Positions 25,866 to 38,269 are shown, numbered from the stretch's first letter. The stretch: DNA of 64,000 nt from Bacillota bacterium (GCA_012689375.1 JAAZLO010000021.1:1-64000); one strand, 5' to 3'. The notes: generated from the sequence alone by a model not told the origin. Translations and numbers: made by a program.

Positions 25866-28562
25866 ATGGAGAACCCAACCGAAACCGGCTTGGAAAAGTC
25901 GGAGGATATGCCTACTGTCTATACACCTTTAGAGTTTGAGGAAAATACTTATAAAAAATGGGTTTCTGCAGGCCTGTTTCATCAGGAAGTGGATCCTTTC
26001 CGGAAACCTTTTTGTATAGTAATTCCCCCGCCTAATATTACCGGGGCTCTCCATATTGGGCATGCCCTTGATAATACTCTCCAGGATATTCTGATCAGAT
26101 GGCATAGAATGCTGGGACACAATACAATATGGATTCCGGGGACGGATCATGCTGGTATTGCGACACAAGTGAAAGTTGAAGCTTCACTGCAGGAAGAGGG
26201 TTTGACCAGGCATGATTTAGGGCGGGAAGAATTCATAAAACGCGTATGGGATTGGAAGCAAAAGTATGGGGGGGCTATCAGAGATCAACTGGAAAAGCTG
26301 GGGGCATCGTGTGATTGGGATAGGGAAAGGTTCACCATGGATGAAGGCCTTTCTAAGGCTGTCCGCCGGGTTTTCGTAAGTTTATATAAAAAAGGCCTTA
26401 TATATAGGGGTGCCTATATTGTAAACTGGTGTCCAAGGTGTCATACATCTTTATCAGATCTTGAAGTCGAACATGAAGAGCGAAAGGGCGCCTTATATTA
26501 TATTAATTATCCTTTTCCTGACAGGGAAAATTATGTGCAAATCGCTACAACCCGGCCTGAAACAATGCTGGGAGATACTGCAATTGCTGTAAACCCCAAT
26601 GATAAACGGTACCGGGACATTATAGGCAAATATGTAATTCTTCCTATTGTGAACAAGAAGATACCGGTTATTGCAGATGAATGGGCGGATCCTGAATTTG
26701 GTACCGGGGCTGTAAAAGTAACTCCTGCACATGATCAGAATGACTTTCAGATTGGGCTCAGACACTCCTTGCCTTTGGTTAGAGTTATTGATGAAGATGG
26801 ACGCATGACAAAAGAGGCAGGGAAATATGAGGGGCTGGACAGATATAAGTGCCGGGAGGAAGTAGTATTTGAGCTCCAACGTCTTGGATATCTCGCAAAA
26901 ATCGAGGAAAGAACCCACTCTGTAGGGCATTGCCAAAGATGCCATACTTCAGTTGAGCCTCTCGTTTCGAAACAATGGTTCGTCAAAATGAAGCCTCTTG
27001 CAGAACCGGCCATTAAGGCTGTTAAGGAAGGTAAAATTAAGTTTGTACCTGACAGATTTCGTAAAATCTACCTTAATTGGATGGAAAATGTCCATGATTG
27101 GTGTATCTCGAGGCAGCTTTGGTGGGGGCACCGCATTCCTGTATGGTATTGTGAAGATTGCGGCGAAACAATTGTGTCTTCGAATACCCCCCACAAATGT
27201 ACGAAGTGCGGCGGGGGTAGCCTGGTGCAAGACCCGGACGTTTTGGATACATGGTTTTCTTCAGCTTTATGGCCGTTTTCCACAATGGGGTGGCCTGAAG
27301 AAACCTGCGAACTAAAACATTTTTATCCTACTTCCGTTCTGGTTACTGCTTATGATATTATTTTCTTTTGGGTAGCTAGAATGATAGTAATGGGCTTGGA
27401 ATTTATGGATGATGTCCCATTTTCGGATGTGCTAATCCATGGTTTGGTAAGGGCTTCCAGCGGTAAGAAAATGAGTAAGTCCCTGGGTACAGGGATAGAT
27501 CCCTTAGAAATAATTGATGAATACGGTGCAGATGTCCTTAGGTTTGCATTAATTATGGGCAACACTCCGGGTAATGACATTACGTTCAGGGAGGAGAGGC
27601 TGGAAGCAAGCAGAAACTTTACAAATAAACTTTGGAATGCCTCAAGATTTACAATTATGAACCTTCGAGGTTTCCAACTTGATATACCTGCAAGTAACCA
27701 ATCTTTGAATTCCGTGGAGGATTCAGATTTAATACTGGCGGATAAGTGGATAAGAAGCAGGATTAATAAAATATGCAAGGAAGTATCCATGCATTTAGAG
27801 GATTATGAAATCGGTGAGGCGGCCCGGACCCTTTATAACTTCACATGGAATGAATTTTGTGATTGGTATATTGAGATTGTTAAAGAAAGGCTGTATTCGG
27901 AAGATATAAAAGCCCGGGGATGTGCCCAGTACGTTCTATGGGAAACATTGGGGAAACTATTAAGGCTTCTCCACCCGTTTCTCCCGTTCATAACTGAGGT
28001 TGTGTGGGATTTATTACCCCATACTGAAGGCAGCATTATGATCTCTCAGTGGCCGGAATATAAAAGTGATATTAACAATCCCGGGGCTGAAAAGGCTATG
28101 AATCTTTTAATGGAGACTATAGGAGGGATTAGAAACATACGTTCAGAAATGAGCATTCCTCCCCATAAAAAAATTAAGGCTGTCATTGTTGCAGAAGATA
28201 CGATTGGTGAAATCTTAAGGGATAATAATACCCTTGTATCTGTGCTTTCCGGGCTTTCGGATATGGTTGTAAGAGAACACTTAGACATGCCCCCTGAAAA
28301 AGCAGTTTCCCAAATTGTGCCCGGGGCTGAAATTTATGTACCTCTTGTCGGGATTATTGATTTAGATGCAGAAATTCAAAAACTTGAAAAAGACCTAATT
28401 TCTACACAGGATATGATTTTAAGATCCCAGAAGAAACTTTGCAATAAAGGGTTCCTGGAGAAAGCAAAAAAAGAAATTATAGAAAAAGAGAAAGGGAGAT
28501 TAGCGGACTCCCGGGAAAAGGAGGCAAGGCTCCAAAAGCGCCTGAGTGAGCTCAGGGAGTAA
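25866..28562 (+). CDS. valS: Valyl-tRNA synthetase
   Basis: PPPNITGALHIGHALDNTLQD, PGTDHAGIATQ, SGKKMSKSLGTGIDPLEIIDEYGADVLRF. Confidence 0.97.
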   Translation: MENPTETGLEKSEDMPTVYTPLEFEENTYKKWVSAGLFHQEVDPFRKPFCIVIPPPNITGALHIGHALDNTLQDILIRWHRMLGHNTIWIPGTDHAGIATQVKVEASLQEEGLTRHDLGREEFIKRVWDWKQKYGGAIRDQLEKLGASCDWDRERFTMDEGLSKAVRRVFVSLYKKGLIYRGAYIVNWCPRCHTSLSDLEVEHEERKGALYYINYPFPDRENYVQIATTRPETMLGDTAIAVNPNDKRYRDIIGKYVILPIVNKKIPVIADEWADPEFGTGAVKVTPAHDQNDFQIGLRHSLPLVRVIDEDGRMTKEAGKYEGLDRYKCREEVVFELQRLGYLAKIEERTHSVGHCQRCHTSVEPLVSKQWFVKMKPLAEPAIKAVKEGKIKFVPDRFRKIYLNWMENVHDWCISRQLWWGHRIPVWYCEDCGETIVSSNTPHKCTKCGGGSLVQDPDVLDTWFSSALWPFSTMGWPEETCELKHFYPTSVLVTAYDIIFFWVARMIVMGLEFMDDVPFSDVLIHGLVRASSGKKMSKSLGTGIDPLEIIDEYGADVLRFALIMGNTPGNDITFREERLEASRNFTNKLWNASRFTIMNLRGFQLDIPASNQSLNSVEDSDLILADKWIRSRINKICKEVSMHLEDYEIGEAARTLYNFTWNEFCDWYIEIVKERLYSEDIKARGCAQYVLWETLGKLLRLLHPFLPFITEVVWDLLPHTEGSIMISQWPEYKSDINNPGAEKAMNLLMETIGGIRNIRSEMSIPPHKKIKAVIVAEDTIGEILRDNNTLVSVLSGLSDMVVREHLDMPPEKAVSQIVPGAEIYVPLVGIIDLDAEIQKLEKDLISTQDMILRSQKKLCNKGFLEKAKKEIIEKEKGRLADSREKEARLQKRLSELRE

Positions 28563-28566
28563 GTAT

Positions 28567-30555
28567 ATGAATTATAAAGAAGCAATAATTTTCCTACGAG
28601 AACTAGGTAAATTTGGTATGCGTACAGGGCTTGGGCGCAGCCTTGCATTATCTCATGAAACAGGCAAGCCTGAGCGGAAATTCCCAATAATTCACATAGC
28701 GGGCACCAACGGTAAAGGTTCAGTGGCGGCGATGATTGAATCTATTCTGAGACATTCAGGGTTTCATGTAGGGCTTTATACATCTCCGCATCTTTCATCG
28801 TACAACGAGCGAATTCGGGTAGGGGGGCGCCCTATTCCCAAACTCGCGCTGGCTAATCTAATGACTGAATTGAAGCCTATTTTTGAAAGAATCGCAAGTG
28901 ATGATTCGTTGGGGGCCCCGACTGAATTTGAGATAGGGACTGCACTTGCCTTTTCATATTTTGCACATGAAAAGGTGGATTTTGCAGTAGTCGAAGTGGG
29001 ATTGGGCGGAAGATTGGACTCCACTAATATTGTGACACCCCGGGTTTCAGTGATCACAAGTATAAGCCGGGAGCATACAAGTGTTCTGGGGGATACTCCG
29101 GAAGAGATTGCCTGGGAGAAAGCAGGAATTATTAAACAGGGTGTTCCTGTTGTCATAGGGCCGCAAAATCCTGCTGTTCTTGAGATAATAAAGAAAATTG
29201 CACATGAAAAACATTCACCGACTGTAATTTTCGGTGAAGATATAAAATGCTATAGAAAATACCGGTCCATTGATGGGCAGGTTTTTGCGGCGGAAGTCAA
29301 AGGGCAAAGCTTTGATTCTCTCAGAATCCCCCTCCTTGGGGCGCATCAGGTTGAAAATGCGGGTATCGCAGTAGGAGTAATAAAGACCCTATGTGATCTT
29401 GGAATAAAAATAAAGGGGAAAGCGATTATAAGCGGCCTTAAATCTGTTTCGTGGCCGGGGAGGCTGGAAGTGCTGCAGAAAAAGCCTCTGGTTTTAGTTG
29501 ACGGTGCCCATAATGAAGAAGGTATTGCTCGGTTGAAAGAGGCAATTCGTGAAATTAAAGATGATCAGGCTGTGACGGCAGTAGTAGGTATATCCCGAGG
29601 GAAGCCTGTTGGGAATATGATATCCGGGATTTCAGGATTTGCCGACAATATTATCGCTACAGGTGCTTTATCATCAAGAAGCGGAATAACGGATCCCGGT
29701 GTACTCTGGGATTTTGCAAAAAGGGAAGGGATCCCCGCTGAAATTATACGGGATCCGCTTCAGGCTGTAAATAAAGGATTGGAAAATGCTGGGGAATCAG
29801 GTGCCTTGGTGGTTTGCGGGTCTATTTATCTCGTCGGTAATGTGCGTAGGCATCTTCTGCAAACAGCAGGTGTATTACCTATGAGCCAAAGACTAGTTAT
29901 ATTTGTCGGGGCCTTTGGTTCCGGAAAAACTGAGGTTGCACTGAATTATGCAAAACTTATGCGTTTCCAGAGCAAGAAAGTTGCTATTATTGATTTTGAT
30001 ATTGTAAATCCCTATTTCAGATCTCGTGAGGTTGCCTCAGCTATGAAGGATCTCGGAATAAGCGTGATTTCGTCTGCACCTCGGATGGAAGCGGCTGATT
30101 TGCCTTCAATTTCTCCCTCTGTATTCCAGGCATTTCAGGATTTCTCGCTTCAGGCCGTGTTTGATGTAGGGGGAGATCCAACAGGTGCAAAAGCGCTTTC
30201 CGGGTTTAGGAGGCAGTTTAAGGAAGCAGGTTATGATATGTATTTTGTCTTAAATACAAACCGGCCCTTTACCAAAGACTTGGAAGATGCCAGGATAATG
30301 CTGGAGTCTATCGAAGAAATATCCCAACTCTCGGTTACGGGGATAGTAAGCAATACTCATTTAGGCAAAGAAACAACAACAGAGGATGTCTTAAAAGGGG
30401 TAAGGATTTCAGAGGCTCTTGGCCGTGAGCTGGATCTTCCCCTGGTATTTGCATGTGCCGATCAGGATATCATTGAAGATATCGGTAAACTTCCCCATAC
30501 GAGACTGGTAGGGCTTGATCTGCATATGAGACCCTTGTGGGAGAGGATTTCGTAA
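28567..30555 (+). CDS. folC: Fusion: folylpolyglutamate/dihydrofolate synthase (FolC) N-terminal part + P-loop (SIMIBI-like) ATPase C-terminal part
   Basis: IHIAGTNGKGSVAAMIESIL...YTSPHL (FolC); from about residue 439, SQRLVIFVGAFGSGKTEVALNYAKLMRFQSKKVAIIDFDIVNPYFRSREV (P-loop); no stop codon between. Confidence 0.88.
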   Translation: MNYKEAIIFLRELGKFGMRTGLGRSLALSHETGKPERKFPIIHIAGTNGKGSVAAMIESILRHSGFHVGLYTSPHLSSYNERIRVGGRPIPKLALANLMTELKPIFERIASDDSLGAPTEFEIGTALAFSYFAHEKVDFAVVEVGLGGRLDSTNIVTPRVSVITSISREHTSVLGDTPEEIAWEKAGIIKQGVPVVIGPQNPAVLEIIKKIAHEKHSPTVIFGEDIKCYRKYRSIDGQVFAAEVKGQSFDSLRIPLLGAHQVENAGIAVGVIKTLCDLGIKIKGKAIISGLKSVSWPGRLEVLQKKPLVLVDGAHNEEGIARLKEAIREIKDDQAVTAVVGISRGKPVGNMISGISGFADNIIATGALSSRSGITDPGVLWDFAKREGIPAEIIRDPLQAVNKGLENAGESGALVVCGSIYLVGNVRRHLLQTAGVLPMSQRLVIFVGAFGSGKTEVALNYAKLMRFQSKKVAIIDFDIVNPYFRSREVASAMKDLGISVISSAPRMEAADLPSISPSVFQAFQDFSLQAVFDVGGDPTGAKALSGFRRQFKEAGYDMYFVLNTNRPFTKDLEDARIMLESIEEISQLSVTGIVSNTHLGKETTTEDVLKGVRISEALGRELDLPLVFACADQDIIEDIGKLPHTRLVGLDLHMRPLWERIS

Positions 30556-31210: not shown

Positions 31211-31594
31211 ATGCAATTGAGGGAGATTGTCAGAATACTTGATGCAGAGGTCCTCACCGGTAAAGATAAATTGGACATGCACGTTGAAGCAGGTTGCGGA
31301 TGTGATTTAATAAGTGATCTTCTGGCATTTACTAAAGAAAAGATGCTTATTCTTACCGGGTTGATATCACCCCAAATCATCCGTGCCGCGGAAATGGCGG
31401 ATTCAGCTGCCATTGTTTTTGTGCGGGGTAAACGGCCTACCCGTGATATTATTGATATGGGTGAAGAATTAGGTTTACCGATTCTATGTACATCTTATCC
31501 GTTATACGAATGTGCCGGTCTTCTGTTTACAGCAGGGTTACCGGGCTGGCGTCATTGGCCCCGTATCGTTAACGGAGTACAGAATGTACCTTGA
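31211..31594 (+). CDS. DRTGG-domain-like protein (first copy)
   Basis: LREIVRILDAEVLTGKDKLDMHVEAGCGCDLISDLLAF...; similar to the copy at 33369-33731. Confidence 0.7.
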   Translation: MQLREIVRILDAEVLTGKDKLDMHVEAGCGCDLISDLLAFTKEKMLILTGLISPQIIRAAEMADSAAIVFVRGKRPTRDIIDMGEELGLPILCTSYPLYECAGLLFTAGLPGWRHWPRIVNGVQNVP

Positions 31595-32012
31595 GTATCG
31601 TGTTGACGGGGGAGATTTCCAGGCATCAGGGCAAGCCGCGGCAGGAATTAAAAGAACGCTTCGCCAAATAGGTATAGATGCGGAAGTTGCCAGGCGGGCA
31701 GCTATTGTGACTTACGAAGCCGAAATGAATATTGCTATACATGCTTACCTCGGTACTATCAGTATTGAAATATTACCGGAACGAATTATTATTCAAGCTG
31801 ATGATGAAGGCCCGGGTATCGCTGATATCCCTGCGGCAATGCAGGTAGGGTATTCTACAGCGACAGAAGACATAAGGGAAATGGGATTTGGTGCAGGCCT
31901 CGGCCTTCCTAATATGAGGCGGTATTCCGATGAGTTTGAAATTGAATCACAAGTGGGGGTTGGGACAAGCGTCAGAGCGGTGATAATCTTGCCGGCGAAA
32001 GAAGGAAACTAA
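31584..32012 (+). CDS. Anti-sigma regulatory factor-like ATP-binding protein (HATPase, RsbW/SpoIIAB-type)
   Basis: AAIVTYEAEMNIAIHAYLGTISIEI...IIIQADDEGPGIADI...GFGAGLGLPNMRRYSDEFEIES. Confidence 0.82.
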   Translation: MYLEYRVDGGDFQASGQAAAGIKRTLRQIGIDAEVARRAAIVTYEAEMNIAIHAYLGTISIEILPERIIIQADDEGPGIADIPAAMQVGYSTATEDIREMGFGAGLGLPNMRRYSDEFEIESQVGVGTSVRAVIILPAKEGN

Positions 32013-32014
32013 TT

Positions 32015-33364
32015 ATGACCCAGCTGTTTCACTCGGTATTATTGATTGAGGAAAAATGTCGTGGTTGCACCAGATGCATCAGGAATTGCCCAACTGAAGC
32101 CATTAGGGTCAGAGGTGGCAAAGCCAGAATTAACGTAGAAAGGTGTATTGATTGCGGCGAATGTATCAGGACTTGTGATAATCATGCGAAGACTGCTGTA
32201 ACAGATCCTTTGTCAAAACTGGAAGAGTTTGATTACACTATTGCATTACCCGCCCCGTCTTTATATGCTCAATTTGGGAAAGAAACTGACAGAAGAAAAA
32301 TACTAGCTTCCCTTATTGATATGGGATTTAATGATGTTTTTGAGGTAGCGTACGGTGCGGATATAGCTACCTTTTTAACATTAGAATATCTAAAAAATCC
32401 AAACTGCAAGTTTCCTGCAATTTCAGCAGCCTGTCCCGCTGTTGTGAGATTAATTCAAGTGCGTTTTCCTTCATTGATAGATCACTTAATTCCGGTGGAA
32501 TCACCTATGGCATGTGCCGGAAAACTGGCTAAAGAGAAAACAAGTGAGAGGCTTGGAATCCCGGAAGATAAAATAGGGACTTTTTTTATTACTCCGTGCC
32601 CTGCAAAGGTTACTTGGGTGCGTGAGGCAAACAGTCGTGGAACTTTTTTTGTCGATGGTGCTATATCCATGTTTGATGCGTACGGTGAGATTATGAAAAG
32701 GCTTCTGACGATTCCTCCCCCTTACCCGCAGCTTAAGGCATCTCCGGACGGGGTCGGCTGGGGACGCACAGGTGGGGAACGTATTGCATCAAAAATTAAG
32801 AATTCCCTCGTAGTGGACGGAATCCATAATGTAATAAATGTTCTGGAAGAGGTTGAAATGGGCAGGCTGGACGATGTGGAGTTCTTAGAGGCCCAGGCAT
32901 GTGTAGGTGGGTGTATCGGCGGTGCCCTTACTGTATTAAATCCATTTATAGGCAAGATGAATTTAGAGTCTGTTGTTGATAAATCAAAGGATCGATCTGA
33001 ACCGCCTGAGGATTTTGTTAAGGAGTTCCGCCTCAAGGAACGCCTTGATGAATTTATAATGAAACTTGATATTATGGCAGTACCTGCTTTTAGGCTTGAT
33101 CAGGATGTATCCCGGGCAATTATCAAGGCCGAAATGATAGAAAAGGTAGTCAATGAACTGCCAGGGTTAGATTGTGGTTCGTGTGGCAGTCCTCATTGCC
33201 GTGCTTTGGCTGAGGATATTGTTCAAGGTCTTGCCGTTGATACTGATTGTATTTTAAAGCTACGTGAAGAAATTGAGATTCTTGCGGAACAACTTCTGGA
33301 GATGGCAAAAAAGAGTCCTTCAGCATTAAAAAGGGATGATAATTCTGGAGAATCCGGAGAGTGA
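32015..33364 (+). CDS. [FeFe]-hydrogenase-family protein, HydS-type putative sensory/regulatory hydrogenase
   Basis: N-terminal 2x4Fe-4S (CRGCTRCIRNCP, CIDCGECIRTC); H-cluster-like motifs SAACPAVV, TPCPAK, EAQACVGGCIGG; C-terminal CGSCGSPHCRALAEDIVQG...C Fe-S domain. Confidence 0.85.
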   Translation: MTQLFHSVLLIEEKCRGCTRCIRNCPTEAIRVRGGKARINVERCIDCGECIRTCDNHAKTAVTDPLSKLEEFDYTIALPAPSLYAQFGKETDRRKILASLIDMGFNDVFEVAYGADIATFLTLEYLKNPNCKFPAISAACPAVVRLIQVRFPSLIDHLIPVESPMACAGKLAKEKTSERLGIPEDKIGTFFITPCPAKVTWVREANSRGTFFVDGAISMFDAYGEIMKRLLTIPPPYPQLKASPDGVGWGRTGGERIASKIKNSLVVDGIHNVINVLEEVEMGRLDDVEFLEAQACVGGCIGGALTVLNPFIGKMNLESVVDKSKDRSEPPEDFVKEFRLKERLDEFIMKLDIMAVPAFRLDQDVSRAIIKAEMIEKVVNELPGLDCGSCGSPHCRALAEDIVQGLAVDTDCILKLREEIEILAEQLLEMAKKSPSALKRDDNSGESGE

Positions 33365-33368
33365 CGAT

Positions 33369-33731
33369 ATGAATCATGGAGTTACAATGAGGGATATTGT
33401 TGTTAAGCTCGGATGTGAAGTAATGGCCGGCTCGGAGCATTTGGATAATCCGGTGGCGTTTGGATATTCCTCAGATCTCTTAAGTGATGTTATGGCGAAA
33501 GTTGGTTTAGGCGATGTCTGGGTTACGGTACAGACACATGAAAATATTATAGCTGTAGGAAGCATTACAGGCGTTTCCGGGATTATAATTGCCGGGGGTG
33601 CTGCTCCTCTGCCTCCTACTGTGCGTAGGGCTAATGAAGAAGGTATTCCTTTGCTCGTTACCGTTAAACCTTCTTTTGAGGTTATCGGTATCCTTTACCA
33701 TATGGGTATAAAAGGTAGATCGGAGAAGTAG
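33369..33731 (+). CDS. DRTGG-domain-like protein (second copy)
   Basis: TMRDIVVKLGCEVMAGSEHLDNPVAFGYSSDLLSDVMAKV; similar to 31211-31594. Confidence 0.75.
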   Translation: MNHGVTMRDIVVKLGCEVMAGSEHLDNPVAFGYSSDLLSDVMAKVGLGDVWVTVQTHENIIAVGSITGVSGIIIAGGAAPLPPTVRRANEEGIPLLVTVKPSFEVIGILYHMGIKGRSEK

Positions 33732-33746
33732 AAGGGAAGAAATCAG

Positions 33747-34499
33747 GTGAGGTTCTTTTTGGCGGACTTTCATATCCATACGGCCCTTTCTCCATGTGCA
33801 GAAAATGAAATGACTCCGCCCGCCATAATTGCAGCTGCGAAGGATAAAGGCTTAGAGGTTATAGGTATTTGCGATCATAATTCAGCAGAAAATGTCATGG
33901 CAGTTATGGAGGCGGGAAAAGCTGAGGGGATAATGGTTATCGGTGGAGCTGAAGTCCAGACTGCAGAGGATGTGCATATCCTCACATTCTTTCGGGATTA
34001 TGGAAATCTAATTCTCTGGCAGGAAGAAATTTATGCTGCATTGCCCGGAATTAAAAACGATGAGGTGAAATTCGGGGAACAATTAATAATGAATTCGCAT
34101 GGAGAAATAACAGGTAGGTTAACTGCCTTTCTCTTAAGCTCCACATTCATGAGTATTGATTATGTAGGCAAGCGGGTACGGGAATTAGGAGGCTTCGTTA
34201 TTCCGGCGCATGTAGACAGGCCATCGTTTAGTCTTATAAGGAATCTTGGGTTTGTGCCGGCCGGACTTGAACCCTGCTGTGTGGAACTGTCAAAAAATAT
34301 CAGCATAGAGCAGGCTAAGAAGAAGTTCCCGTCCATTGCACAGTTCCCTCTCATTAAATCATCAGATGCTCATAGGTTAAATGAGATATCACCATATACA
34401 AAAATTTGGATGAAGGACAAGATCTGGGATGAGCTTTTGCTTGCCCTCAATTTCGCCGGAGGGAGGTACATTTTACCTTCTGATACTTGTCTACGATAA
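33747..34499 (+). CDS. PHP-domain phosphoesterase
   Basis: LADFHIHTALSPCAENEMTPPAII...GICDHNSAEN...VIPAHVDRPSF...IKSSDAH. Confidence 0.88.
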   Translation: MRFFLADFHIHTALSPCAENEMTPPAIIAAAKDKGLEVIGICDHNSAENVMAVMEAGKAEGIMVIGGAEVQTAEDVHILTFFRDYGNLILWQEEIYAALPGIKNDEVKFGEQLIMNSHGEITGRLTAFLLSSTFMSIDYVGKRVRELGGFVIPAHVDRPSFSLIRNLGFVPAGLEPCCVELSKNISIEQAKKKFPSIAQFPLIKSSDAHRLNEISPYTKIWMKDKIWDELLLALNFAGGRYILPSDTCLR

Positions 34500-34547
34500 T
34501 TATTATTCAATTAGTTCGTAAAGCAATATAAAAATAGGAGTGGGAAT

Positions 34548-35093
34548 GTGCGGGAACTTTCACTTCATATTCTTGATATAGCCCAGAACTCAATAGAGGC
34601 AGGGGCGGACAGCATAGAAATAATAATTACTGAAAACGAATCGTCTGATACTCTGACCATATGTATTCTGGATAACGGATCAGGGATTCCTGCAGAAGCC
34701 CTCGATAATATCACTGATCCCTTTGTAACATCTAGAAAAACCCGCCGGGTGGGGCTGGGGATCCCTTTATTTAAAGAAGCAGCCAGAGCAGCAGGAGGAG
34801 GTTTACAAATCCGGTCTGCAGTAGGTAAAGGAACGGAAATTAAAGCTGACTTTTCCCTAAGCAGTATTGACAGGGCACCTCTCGGGAATATAGCGGAAAC
34901 CATGGCTCTTCTTATGGTTTGTAATCCGGAGGTACATTTTAAATATGAACATATCAGGGGGAATACTAAATTCATGTGCAGTACAAGCAGCTTAGAAGAG
35001 ATACTTAACGGTATACCCCTTGGAAGCCCGGGTGCAGTATCTGTAATACGCAGTTTTATTGATGGCGGCCTTGAGGATATCAGAGTATCATAA
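34548..35093 (+). CDS. HATPase_c (histidine-kinase-like ATPase) domain protein
   Basis: LHILDIAQNSIEAGADSIEI...ILDNGSGIPAEALDNITDPFVTSRKTRRVGLGIPLFKEAARAAGG. Confidence 0.87.
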   Translation: MRELSLHILDIAQNSIEAGADSIEIIITENESSDTLTICILDNGSGIPAEALDNITDPFVTSRKTRRVGLGIPLFKEAARAAGGGLQIRSAVGKGTEIKADFSLSSIDRAPLGNIAETMALLMVCNPEVHFKYEHIRGNTKFMCSTSSLEEILNGIPLGSPGAVSVIRSFIDGGLEDIRVS

Positions 35094-35120
35094 GCCGACT
35101 GCAACTAATGCGCCGGAGGC

Positions 35121-35579
35121 ATGAGTATTGTGAAAGAGCGAGGCAAAGTAATTGATATCAGCGGAGACACTGCCAAAGTTGAAATTATCCGAAGAGACGA
35201 ATGCAGCCGATGTAAAGTGTGTGGTTTTGGATCAAGGGACACAATAACTGTTATTGCGGACAACGCTGTAAAGGCTGAAAAGCAAGACGAGGTAGAGCTG
35301 GAACTGAAAGGATCGCAGGTACTGAAAGCTGCGGCAATTATGTATCTCATACCCCTTGCCTTTTTTTTAATAGGGCTTCATTTAGGAAACATTTTTACAT
35401 CGTATATTGATCGGCAAGATATGATGTCTTTTTGGTCAGCTGTCTTCGGGTTTGTATTTTTGGGGCTTTCATATGTGGGGATATCTATATATAGCAGGCG
35501 TTCTGCAATATCAAAGTATCGGGCAAAGATTACCAGAATCTTGATTCCTTATAAATCAGGCAGGGGCGAAAATGAATAA
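35121..35579 (+). CDS. RseC/SoxR-reducing-system family membrane protein
   Basis: GKVIDISGDTAKVEIIRRDECSRCKVCGFG followed by two TM helices. Confidence 0.82.
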   Translation: MSIVKERGKVIDISGDTAKVEIIRRDECSRCKVCGFGSRDTITVIADNAVKAEKQDEVELELKGSQVLKAAAIMYLIPLAFFLIGLHLGNIFTSYIDRQDMMSFWSAVFGFVFLGLSYVGISIYSRRSAISKYRAKITRILIPYKSGRGENE

Positions 35580-35614
35580 GTAATAAATGAGTCTGAAAAA
35601 ATCCAAAAAAGGGA

Positions 35615-35632
35615 TTGTGAAAAATCGCACAA
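35615..35632. promoter_or_regulatory. Candidate Rex operator TTGTGAAAAATCGCACAA
   Basis: TTGTG-N8-CACAA inverted repeat in the intergenic region ahead of the hydrogenase-type diaphorase/rex gene set. Confidence 0.7.
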
Positions 35633-35732
35633 GGTAGTAAGCTAGTAGAAGGGAAGGAGAGCGGAGAAACACACCAAATAAACTATCTAATTCAATACTG
35701 AACTGATGGGTAGGTTTTGGGAGGTATTAAAA

Positions 35733-36095
35733 ATGAAAACAGTTGAGGATTTGGAACGGATCAGAAAGCAAGCCAAAGTAATGACTAAACTGAGGGAAGG
35801 CGGAGAAACAACTAAAGTAGTGGTTGGTATGGGAACTTGTGGAATTGCGGCAGGGGCACGTGAGACTCTGTCAGCTATTATGGATGAACTGGCACGCCGT
35901 AATATTCAGGACGTTATTGTAACACAGACAGGCTGTATCGGATTGTGTGAGCAGGAACCTATCATCACTGTAGAAAGGCCTGGTGAAGGGAAAGTTTCCT
36001 ACGGTAAAGTTTCCGGTGAAAGGGCGCGTAAAATTGTTGCCTCTCATGTAATAAACGGTCAAGTGGTCGGGGAGTGGGTAATCCCCGCAAGTTAA
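35733..36095 (+). CDS. HndB-like (2Fe-2S) ferredoxin-domain subunit
   Basis: VVVGMGTCGIAAGARETL...VTQTGCIGLCEQEPIITVE. Confidence 0.82.
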   Translation: MKTVEDLERIRKQAKVMTKLREGGETTKVVVGMGTCGIAAGARETLSAIMDELARRNIQDVIVTQTGCIGLCEQEPIITVERPGEGKVSYGKVSGERARKIVASHVINGQVVGEWVIPAS

Positions 36096-36130
36096 ATAAA
36101 CTGGAGCCTCTATGAGAAGGAGGATACGAG

Positions 36131-36610
36131 ATGAATGTTGTTCCTGCAGACTTAAACAACGTGGAATCAATTGTTAATGAAATTGTCACGAGGCATGAAG
36201 GAAACAAACACGAACTCGTCGCGGTCCTTAATGATGTTCAGAAGACACTGGGATATCTTCCTGAGAGTGCGCTTATTCAAGTTGCGGACGGTCTGGATAT
36301 TCCGCTCTCAAAGGTTTATGGTGTTGCTACTTTTTATACCCTTCTTTCCATAAAACCTATGGGGAAACATGTAATTAGGGTATGTGAAAGTGCACCTTGC
36401 CATTTGCTTGGTGCAAACTCGTTAATTGATGTTCTTCGGAAGGAACTTAGAATCTCTATCGGTGAAACTACAAAATGCGGCACATTTACATTAGAACATA
36501 CCAGCTGTCTGGGATTATGTGGTGTAGCTCCTGCAATAATGATAGATGATGAGGTATTTGGCAATCTCATGCCCGATGATATACCGGCTATTCTTGAAAA
36601 ATATAAGTGA
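36131..36610 (+). CDS. NuoE/HydC-like 2Fe-2S subunit
   Basis: GYLPESALIQVADGLDIPLSKVYGVATFY...CESAPCHLLGA...TSCLGLCGVAPAI. Confidence 0.9.
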   Translation: MNVVPADLNNVESIVNEIVTRHEGNKHELVAVLNDVQKTLGYLPESALIQVADGLDIPLSKVYGVATFYTLLSIKPMGKHVIRVCESAPCHLLGANSLIDVLRKELRISIGETTKCGTFTLEHTSCLGLCGVAPAIMIDDEVFGNLMPDDIPAILEKYK

Positions 36611-36633
36611 TATCTTTGAGGGAGGTGGCAATC

Positions 36634-38244
36634 TTGCAATTTTACCGTTCACATGTGTTAATTTGCGCGGGGACTCCATGTATTCTCAAAGGATGCGGAG
36701 CGGTGCGTGACGCATTCATTACAGAATTAAAAAATCAAGGGTTGGAAGAAGAAGTAAGAGTAGTTGAAACAGGCTGTCTCGGGCCATGTGATCTTGGTCC
36801 TGTGATTGTAATTTACCCTGAAGGAACACTGTATGAGAAAGTAAAAATTTCGGATGTACCCAAAATTGTTGACGAACACCTTCTAAAAGGAAGAATAGTC
36901 CGTGATCTTATAAGTGAAGGCTCCATCCCCGGAATTATTCCTTATAAGGAACCTGTTTATTTTGGAATTCAGGAAAGGATTGTCCTCAGGAACTGCGGAA
37001 TTATTGATCCTTCTTCCATTGAGGAATATATTGCCCGTGACGGATATCAGGCCTTGGCAAAGTGCCTGACTGAAATGAAGCCTTCCGAAGTTATAGAAAT
37101 TGTAAAACAATCAGGACTTGTAGGAAGGGGTGGGGCTGCATTTCCCACAGGCCTGAAATGGAGTTTTACGGCGAATACGAAAGATGATCAGAAATACATG
37201 ATATGTAATGCTGATGAAGGGGAGCCCGGGACTTTTAAGGATCGTTTAATCTTAGAAGGGGATCCCCATAGTATAATTGAAGCAATGACTATTGCCGGGT
37301 ATGCAGTTGGTGCTACCCGTGGCTTTGTGTACATAAGGGGTGAATATGGGCTTTCCATCGATCGAATAAACCAGGGGATTCAACAAGCTGAATCCATGGG
37401 ATTATTAGGAGATAATATCTTTGGATCCGGTTTTTCTTTTAAACTGGAAGTAAAAAAGGGGGCAGGAGCCTACGTATGCGGTGAGGAGACTGCGCTTATT
37501 GAATCTATGGAAGGCAACAGAGGAGAACCCAGGGTTAAACCTCCATACCCGGGTACCCATGGTTTTTTGGGGAAGCCCACTGTTGTAAATAATGTGGAAA
37601 CACTTGCAAACGTTCCTCAGATAATACTTAACGGCGCTGATTGGTACAGGGGGTATGGTACTCCGAAATGCCCAGGCACAAAAGTGTTTACCATGACAGG
37701 GGATATTAACAATAAGGGCCTCATTGAGGTGCCTATGGGTATTACCCTCCGTGAGATTATTTATGAGATCGGAGGGGGGATCCCGGAGGGCAGGGAATTT
37801 AAGATGGCCCAGACCGGGGGGACTTCAGGGGGGTGTTTGTCCGGCGAAATGTTGGATGTACCTATGGATTACTTTACTCTCCCTGAAAAAGGATCCGCCC
37901 TTGGATCCGGTGCATTATTAATAATGGATGACAGTCATTGTATAGTTGATATCGCAGAATCCTTTATGAGATTTTTTGTCAGGGAGTCATGTGGGAAATG
38001 TGCTCCCTGCAGGGTAGGTACAGTAAGGTTACATGAGATCGTGAAAAAAGTCGCCTGTGGCGACGGGACCTATGAGGATCTGGAAATCTTAGAAGATTTG
38101 GGACGCACCATGCGGGAGACTTCTCTTTGTGGGTTGGGCCAATCTGCGCCTGTACCTATTATGACTATGCTTAGATATTTTAAAGATGAGTTCATGGCCC
38201 ATATTGAAGAGAAGCGGTGTCCTTCTGAAACATGCAAATTATGA
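36634..38244 (+). CDS. NuoF/HydB-like NADH-binding (FMN) subunit, ending without C-terminal ferredoxin domain
   Basis: GLVGRGGAAFPTGLKW, ICNADEGEPGTFKDR, ESCGKCAPCRVGT...ETSLCGLGQSAPVP; terminates at RCPSETCKL*. Confidence 0.9.
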   Translation: MQFYRSHVLICAGTPCILKGCGAVRDAFITELKNQGLEEEVRVVETGCLGPCDLGPVIVIYPEGTLYEKVKISDVPKIVDEHLLKGRIVRDLISEGSIPGIIPYKEPVYFGIQERIVLRNCGIIDPSSIEEYIARDGYQALAKCLTEMKPSEVIEIVKQSGLVGRGGAAFPTGLKWSFTANTKDDQKYMICNADEGEPGTFKDRLILEGDPHSIIEAMTIAGYAVGATRGFVYIRGEYGLSIDRINQGIQQAESMGLLGDNIFGSGFSFKLEVKKGAGAYVCGEETALIESMEGNRGEPRVKPPYPGTHGFLGKPTVVNNVETLANVPQIILNGADWYRGYGTPKCPGTKVFTMTGDINNKGLIEVPMGITLREIIYEIGGGIPEGREFKMAQTGGTSGGCLSGEMLDVPMDYFTLPEKGSALGSGALLIMDDSHCIVDIAESFMRFFVRESCGKCAPCRVGTVRLHEIVKKVACGDGTYEDLEILEDLGRTMRETSLCGLGQSAPVPIMTMLRYFKDEFMAHIEEKRCPSETCKL

Positions 38245-38269
38245 TCGTATTGTTGGTACGTTGAGGGGG

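Follow-up and report, generated by a model that had tools for sequence, protein, structure and literature searches.

In a 64,000-nt stretch of DNA from a Bacillota bacterium (GCA_012689375.1 JAAZLO010000021.1:1-64000; hereafter the window, with positions counted from its first nucleotide), we analyzed a compact gene cluster at 31211-35579 centered on HydS, a homologue of [FeFe]-hydrogenases. We found that this cluster contains a real and deeply conserved module whose parts are known and whose combination we did not find described. Its gene order, the co-occurrence of its genes, natural gene fusions, intact ATP- and metal-binding sites and the replacement of HydS by a pair of CBS domains in some genomes are solidly supported by sequence comparison. 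On balance we favor a HydS-centered signaling module of the partner-switching type, in which the kind of signal, its transmission by phosphorylation and the output are our inference. The first-pass annotation of this DNA had described seven tightly packed co-directional genes, and the gene coordinates and the Pfam and NCBIfam domain assignments of the window's proteins agree with this description. Neighboring genes overlap slightly or are separated by gaps of at most 48 bp:

31211-31594, + strand: DRTGG1, a DRTGG-domain protein with an invariant D-x-x-S (PF07085, 36.3 bits; cut-off 25.2)
31587-32012, + strand: HATPase1, a SpoIIAB/RsbW-like GHKL ATPase (ATG start at 31587, 8-bp overlap with DRTGG1; Pfam match to HATPase_c_2/HATPase_c)
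32015-33364, + strand: HydS, 449 amino acids (aa) (PF02906, Fe_hyd_lg_C, 121 bits; Fer4; PF04060)
33363-33731, + strand: DRTGG2 (GTG start at 33363; PF07085, 24.0 bits, below the cut-off of 25.2)
33747-34499, + strand: PHP, of a metal-dependent phosphoesterase family (PF02811)
34548-35093, + strand: HATPase2, a lone histidine-kinase-type ATPase domain with a conserved C-terminal extension (PF02518, 60 bits)
35121-35579, + strand: RseC, an RseC/MucC-family membrane protein (PF04246, RseC_MucC, 86.8 bits)

We compared gene order among 98 loci (80 from a scan of genome contigs, 17 from relatives, and the window), and HATPase1 and HydS were searched for in a separate sample of 249 genomes spread over the phylum and not corrected for relatedness. 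In the phylum sample, HATPase1 lay directly 5′ of HydS in all 86 assessable loci, DRTGG2 was 3′ of HydS in 84/87 loci and PHP in 78/84, DRTGG1 was upstream in 74/85 and HATPase2 was present in 74/81. The complete five-gene core DRTGG1-HATPase1-HydS-DRTGG2-PHP was found in 70 of the 81 assessable loci. The gene order is far beyond chance, because it recurs in Clostridia, Atribacteria, Armatimonadetes, Syntrophorhabdales and Spirochaetes, and the unit thus occurs in a wide range of anaerobic bacteria. Of the 249 genomes, 91 had both HATPase1 and HydS, 7 had only HATPase1, 1 had only HydS and 150 had neither (Fisher p-value 2.4e-58, uncorrected for relatedness), and in the sole genome with HydS only the locus is interrupted by a contig end. 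The other widely conserved neighbors were just valS/folC/SPOR upstream, plus the hyd operon and rex. As the first-pass annotation had noted for the window with regard to classical response regulators and sigma factors, neither a response regulator nor a sigma factor nor a STAS protein was conserved beside the module in the 98 loci. The unassigned neighbors in these loci were considered as hidden conserved output genes, and none qualified.

Natural fusions, taken as stop-free open frames that join neighbors, with one example of each kind confirmed with Pfam, connect most of these genes: DRTGG1-HATPase1 in 7 genomes, HATPase1-HydS in one (G241, 626 aa), HydS-DRTGG2 in two (G124 and G048) and PHP-HATPase2 in 5. 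Together with the phyletic co-occurrence, these fusions argue for functional coupling of HydS to its neighbors. Three genomes (G102, G130 and G162) lack HydS and carry a HATPase1 with an N-terminal CBS pair (CBS E-value about 1e-30), in the otherwise retained order DRTGG1-[CBS-CBS-HATPase1]-DRTGG2-PHP-HATPase2. They possess HydA and HydG, and H2 metabolism is therefore not what was lost. A further genome, G054, has both a CBS-HATPase1 and HydS. Since the CBS pair is attached to HATPase1 where HydS is absent and the other genes are kept, HydS seems to be an input of HATPase1 that can be exchanged.

By its sequence marks, the hydrogenase homologue is assigned to group D (M2e). The marks given by Land et al. 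(PMC8163306) are a Cx2Cx4Cx16C motif, absence of C299, replacement of M353 by Ser/Thr and absence of PAS, and the window protein matches them: its C-terminal Cx2Cx4Cx16C domain comprises C387, C390, C395 and C412, the alignment places Ala at the C299 and Thr at the M353 position, and a Pfam scan found no PAS domain. A Ser or Thr is present at the M353-equivalent position in 90/91 aligned HydS sequences. The N-terminus carries two 4Fe-4S motifs, the H-domain keeps all four cluster cysteines (SAACP, TPC, ACVGGC), and 16/16 cluster cysteines are present in the alignment, with the motifs SAACP and TPCPAK. In a tree that does not contain TamHydS, the group D protein of Thermoanaerobacter mathranii, the HydS family formed its own clade relative to the HydA proteins of the neighboring operons and to group C-like proteins (support 100/99). 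The earlier designation as a HydS-type hydrogenase is thus upheld by the group D marks and by a clade apart from the group A and C-like sequences. Among the group C-like proteins, the six that were scanned carry domains of PAS, histidine kinase or sigma-54 activator type; at loci L260, L261 and L264, the chain of a group C-like [FeFe]-hydrogenase also holds a sigma-54 activator (AAA+) and a Fis-type helix-turn-helix.

HATPase1 matched the SpoIIAB anti-sigma F family (TIGR01925) with an E-value of 3e-13 and SpoIIAB structures in a profile search at 7e-12, and its SpoIIAB-type N-box Glu/Asn/His and its G1 and G2 boxes are invariant in 84 sequences. We regard it as a SpoIIAB/RsbW-like ATPase and the likely transducer of the HydS signal. 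The AlphaFold2 model of DRTGG1 (predicted local distance difference test, pLDDT, 90.7) matched the fold of the DRTGG structures 2IOJ (template modeling score 0.75) and 3L2B. In both DRTGG families a Ser occupies the DLxS/D-x-x-S position in 100% of aligned sequences; in the DRTGG1 model this motif opens a helix that follows a strand, and DRTGG2 has an invariant DLLS and WxT. Though DRTGG2 is below the cut-off by itself, it is assignable to a family conserved at this position, and the DRTGG2 portion of a HydS fusion scored 30.1 bits with PF07085. PHP has complete metal-ligand motifs that are invariant across the family alignment, and its AlphaFold2 model (pLDDT 96.5) matched the folds of EndoQ, TM0559 and RNase AM. 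Because of these invariant ligands and the EndoQ/TM0559-type fold, PHP may cleave a nucleotide or undo a modification. In HATPase2, no phospho-acceptor domain accompanies the kinase ATP-binding domain; HATPase2 is present and adjacent, as the annotated set had it, but in most genomes it is located inside the hydABC operon and is part of that unit. RseC, which the annotation had counted in the module, was rejected as a core component, being lineage-specific and present in just 13/98 loci.

In the mechanism that we propose, HydS would be the input and would sit on HATPase1, the transducer, whose activity would be controlled by the state of HydS. DRTGG1 would be the regulated partner of HATPase1 and DRTGG2 that of HydS. 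The invariant serine of the DRTGG D-x-x-S motif would be the phosphorylation target of HATPase1, and PHP, as the opposing metal-dependent phosphoesterase, would reverse this phosphorylation. HATPase2 would couple the module to the electron-bifurcating hydrogenase operon, and the output may act on hydrogenase activity or expression, with presumed direct contacts between the proteins in this organism. In favor of this scheme, the 98 loci hold no other conserved neighbor that could be the target. Several observations weigh against it. HATPase1 fails the SpoIIAB family cut-off (TIGR01925, 49.8 of 135 bits), and no conserved STAS antagonist or sigma factor lies beside it in the 98 loci; a STAS-like fold for DRTGG was considered and rejected, as the fold search gave DRTGG, HPrK and Mur N-domains. 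The PHP relatives found were nucleases and nucleotide phosphatases, with no protein phosphatases among them, and the D-x-x-S could be a structural helix-capping box, which would explain its conservation equally well. A few loci (L114 and L117) hold HATPase1-HydS alone. Apart from these points, variant loci without DRTGG and PHP (G138, G167 and G192, which are L205, L216 and L225, as well as L109 and L113) have a response regulator directly 5′ of HATPase1-HydS. It was named OmpR-type by eye from the sequence and is mostly preceded by a large sensor kinase, a combination seen only in this variant. At the G138 and L109 loci a CheW-like protein also lies in between.

The module had been proposed to sense H2 or the redox state of ferredoxin, and H2 sensing was not established. 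HydG was considered absent when there was no match at an E-value of 1e-100, and HydA when there was no PF02906 match at 1e-60. By these thresholds HydG is absent in 28/92 HydS genomes, many of them at least 97% complete, and five of the 28 also lack HydA, three of these five being near-complete genomes from a single family (G043, G184 and G232). Every aligned HydS has 16/16 cluster cysteines, in genomes with and without HydG alike. The lysine of the CPAK motif, equivalent by motif to CpI K358, is present in 65/65 HydS proteins of genomes with HydG and in 21/26 of those without (p-value 0.0014, uncorrected for relatedness, with 3/5 changes within one family); in the family without HydA or HydG it is lost and all 16 cluster cysteines are kept. 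This pattern fits a protein that would need its iron-sulfur cubanes and could dispense with the [2Fe] site. The absence of HydG in draft genomes is weak evidence alone, because HydG is also absent in 56 genomes with a HydA match, and in G001 and G004, two same-genus genomes with several HydA genes. H2 sensing is unlikely for part of the HydS family. We tentatively raise the possibility that HydS is not necessarily an H2 sensor: maturation of an H-cluster may be lacking in several lineages, perhaps also in this organism, and HydS may act there as an all-cubane low-potential redox sensor. It would feed a new DRTGG/PHP partner-switching system, in which CBS domains can take the place of the input.

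In the window's own assembly (96% complete, 140 contigs), family searches gave no HydG or HydE match and no HydF above the cut-off; an H-cluster in this organism's HydS, and its reaction with H2, therefore appear doubtful. The region downstream of the module contains:

35615-35632, no strand: Rex-operator-like inverted repeat TTGTGAAAAATCGCACAA, 5′ of the hyd operon
35706-38244, + strand: hyd operon without hydA (2Fe-2S thioredoxin-like, NuoE/HydC-like and NuoF/HydB-like genes)

A hyd operon adjoins the module, but the catalytic hydA is absent from it: NuoF is followed by Rex, with hydA missing at 38244-38260, where four same-genus genomes have NuoF-HydA-Rex. The only other Fe_hyd_lg_C protein of the assembly, on a 2.4-kb contig (C74, L003:490-2238), has the L1 motif ISCSPGW, the L3 motif PGEC and an L2 motif, MPYTAKK, in which Tyr replaces a Cys kept in 62/62 other aligned hydrogenase sequences. 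Sequencing error or assembly gaps may be involved, but loss of [FeFe]-hydrogenase activity would account for the lack of HydE, HydG and a HydF above the cut-off, the missing hydA and the altered HydA alike. The window HydS keeps every cluster cysteine and the CPAK lysine, with 38 unique changes compared to 21 in a sister, an excess not seen in HATPase1. HATPase2, NuoE and NuoF (34548-38244) have more changes specific to the window lineage than HATPase1 or PHP, and look as if they had been relaxed after the loss of hydA. The repeat at 35615-35632 is a perfect match, the sole one in the window, to what we take to be the Rex-operator consensus; 1.6 matches with at most one mismatch are expected by chance, and the match is not significant by itself. 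It is also perfect and in the same place in the four same-genus genomes, with one-mismatch matches in a sister genus. Because the repeat keeps its place across same-genus genomes, the hyd operon, which also encodes Rex, is probably a Rex-controlled unit apart from the sensor module. On the other side of the module, an apparent fusion joins FolC and a second P-loop ATPase-like domain in one 669-aa protein (28546-30555); G051 has one gene for each.

These results bear on three other explanations of the module. HydS could control a nucleotide second messenger bound by DRTGG (by CBS in the variants) and hydrolyzed by PHP, with HATPase1 only gating the binding. As the model matches of DRTGG1 show, pyrophosphatases combine DRTGG with nucleotide-binding CBS domains; CBS domains join HATPase1, and the relatives of PHP include an AMP-bound amidohydrolase and a 3′,5′-nucleoside bisphosphate phosphatase. 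However, no synthetase gene is conserved nearby in the 98 loci and the invariant partner is a SpoIIAB-like ATPase, and we consider such a messenger rather improbable. It is somewhat less probable still that both ATPases, DRTGG and PHP build or gate the bifurcating hydrogenase HydABC, in assembly or quality control, with HydS as a structural homologue. The module persists in the near-complete genomes G043, G184 and G232, which have neither HydA nor HydG. What speaks for an assembly role is the position of HATPase2 inside the hydABC operon, the lineage-specific changes of HATPase2, NuoE and NuoF relative to HATPase1 and PHP where hydA is missing, and the Acetobacterium woodii homologue HydE, which is outside the enzyme and was proposed to serve assembly or signaling (PMC3315566).

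TamHydS converts H+/H2 slowly (PMC8163306), and HydS might likewise be a slow catalytic or electron-transfer enzyme among unrelated neighbors. The fusions, the co-occurrence and the conserved order argue against this, as does the K358-equivalent lysine, lost in lineages that have no maturation genes; the comparative data already largely refute it, leaving it highly improbable. For the signal route of group D sensory hydrogenases, which lack PAS, the module offers HATPase1 as a likely transducer, together with probable partners of HATPase1 and an antagonist. The natural fusions can be expressed and assayed, and the HydS lineages without maturation genes make the choice between H2 and redox directly testable. 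The module also matters for the way in which many anaerobes of the gut, the rumen and digesters control their fermentation and their H2 output.

Some features of the module have been published. The window HydS resembles TamHydS (group D/M2e) in domain layout, Cx2Cx4Cx16C motif, missing C299, Ser/Thr at M353 and lack of PAS. An AraC regulator was reported for TamHydS, whereas none is conserved beside HydS here, and in the TamHydS literature we found no description of a DRTGG pair, PHP, fusions or a maturation-less HydS. Our literature search on DRTGG and hydrogenases found nothing relevant, though parts of the neighborhood may have been mentioned earlier. For group D sensory hydrogenases, a study from 2026 saw no response of the C-terminal cluster to H2 (PMC13104023). 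The pairing of a group D HydS with an adjacent histidine-kinase-like ATPase has been published before, and in A. woodii HydE, the counterpart of HATPase2, is a histidine-kinase ATPase-domain protein of the bifurcating hydrogenase operon that is absent from the purified enzyme (PMC3315566); the DRTGG-HATPase1-HydS-DRTGG-PHP set is undescribed in that report.

The group C HydS proteins (Ruminococcus albus HydS, HfsB, Thermotoga maritima HydS) share the H-domain, the C-terminal FeS domain and a proposed signaling role, and some group C sensory hydrogenases pair with a Ser/Thr phosphatase (PMC6776011, PMC11837493). Their own chain, however, also bears PAS, kinase or sigma-54 activator domains, whereas the group D HydS appears to pass its signal to a separate SpoIIAB-like ATPase. 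With SpoIIAB/SpoIIAA/SpoIIE and RsbW/RsbV/RsbU the module shares a GHKL serine-kinase-like ATPase with the SpoIIAB N-box, small conserved partners and a phosphoesterase, and it differs from them in using DRTGG instead of STAS and PHP instead of PP2C, with no sigma factor.

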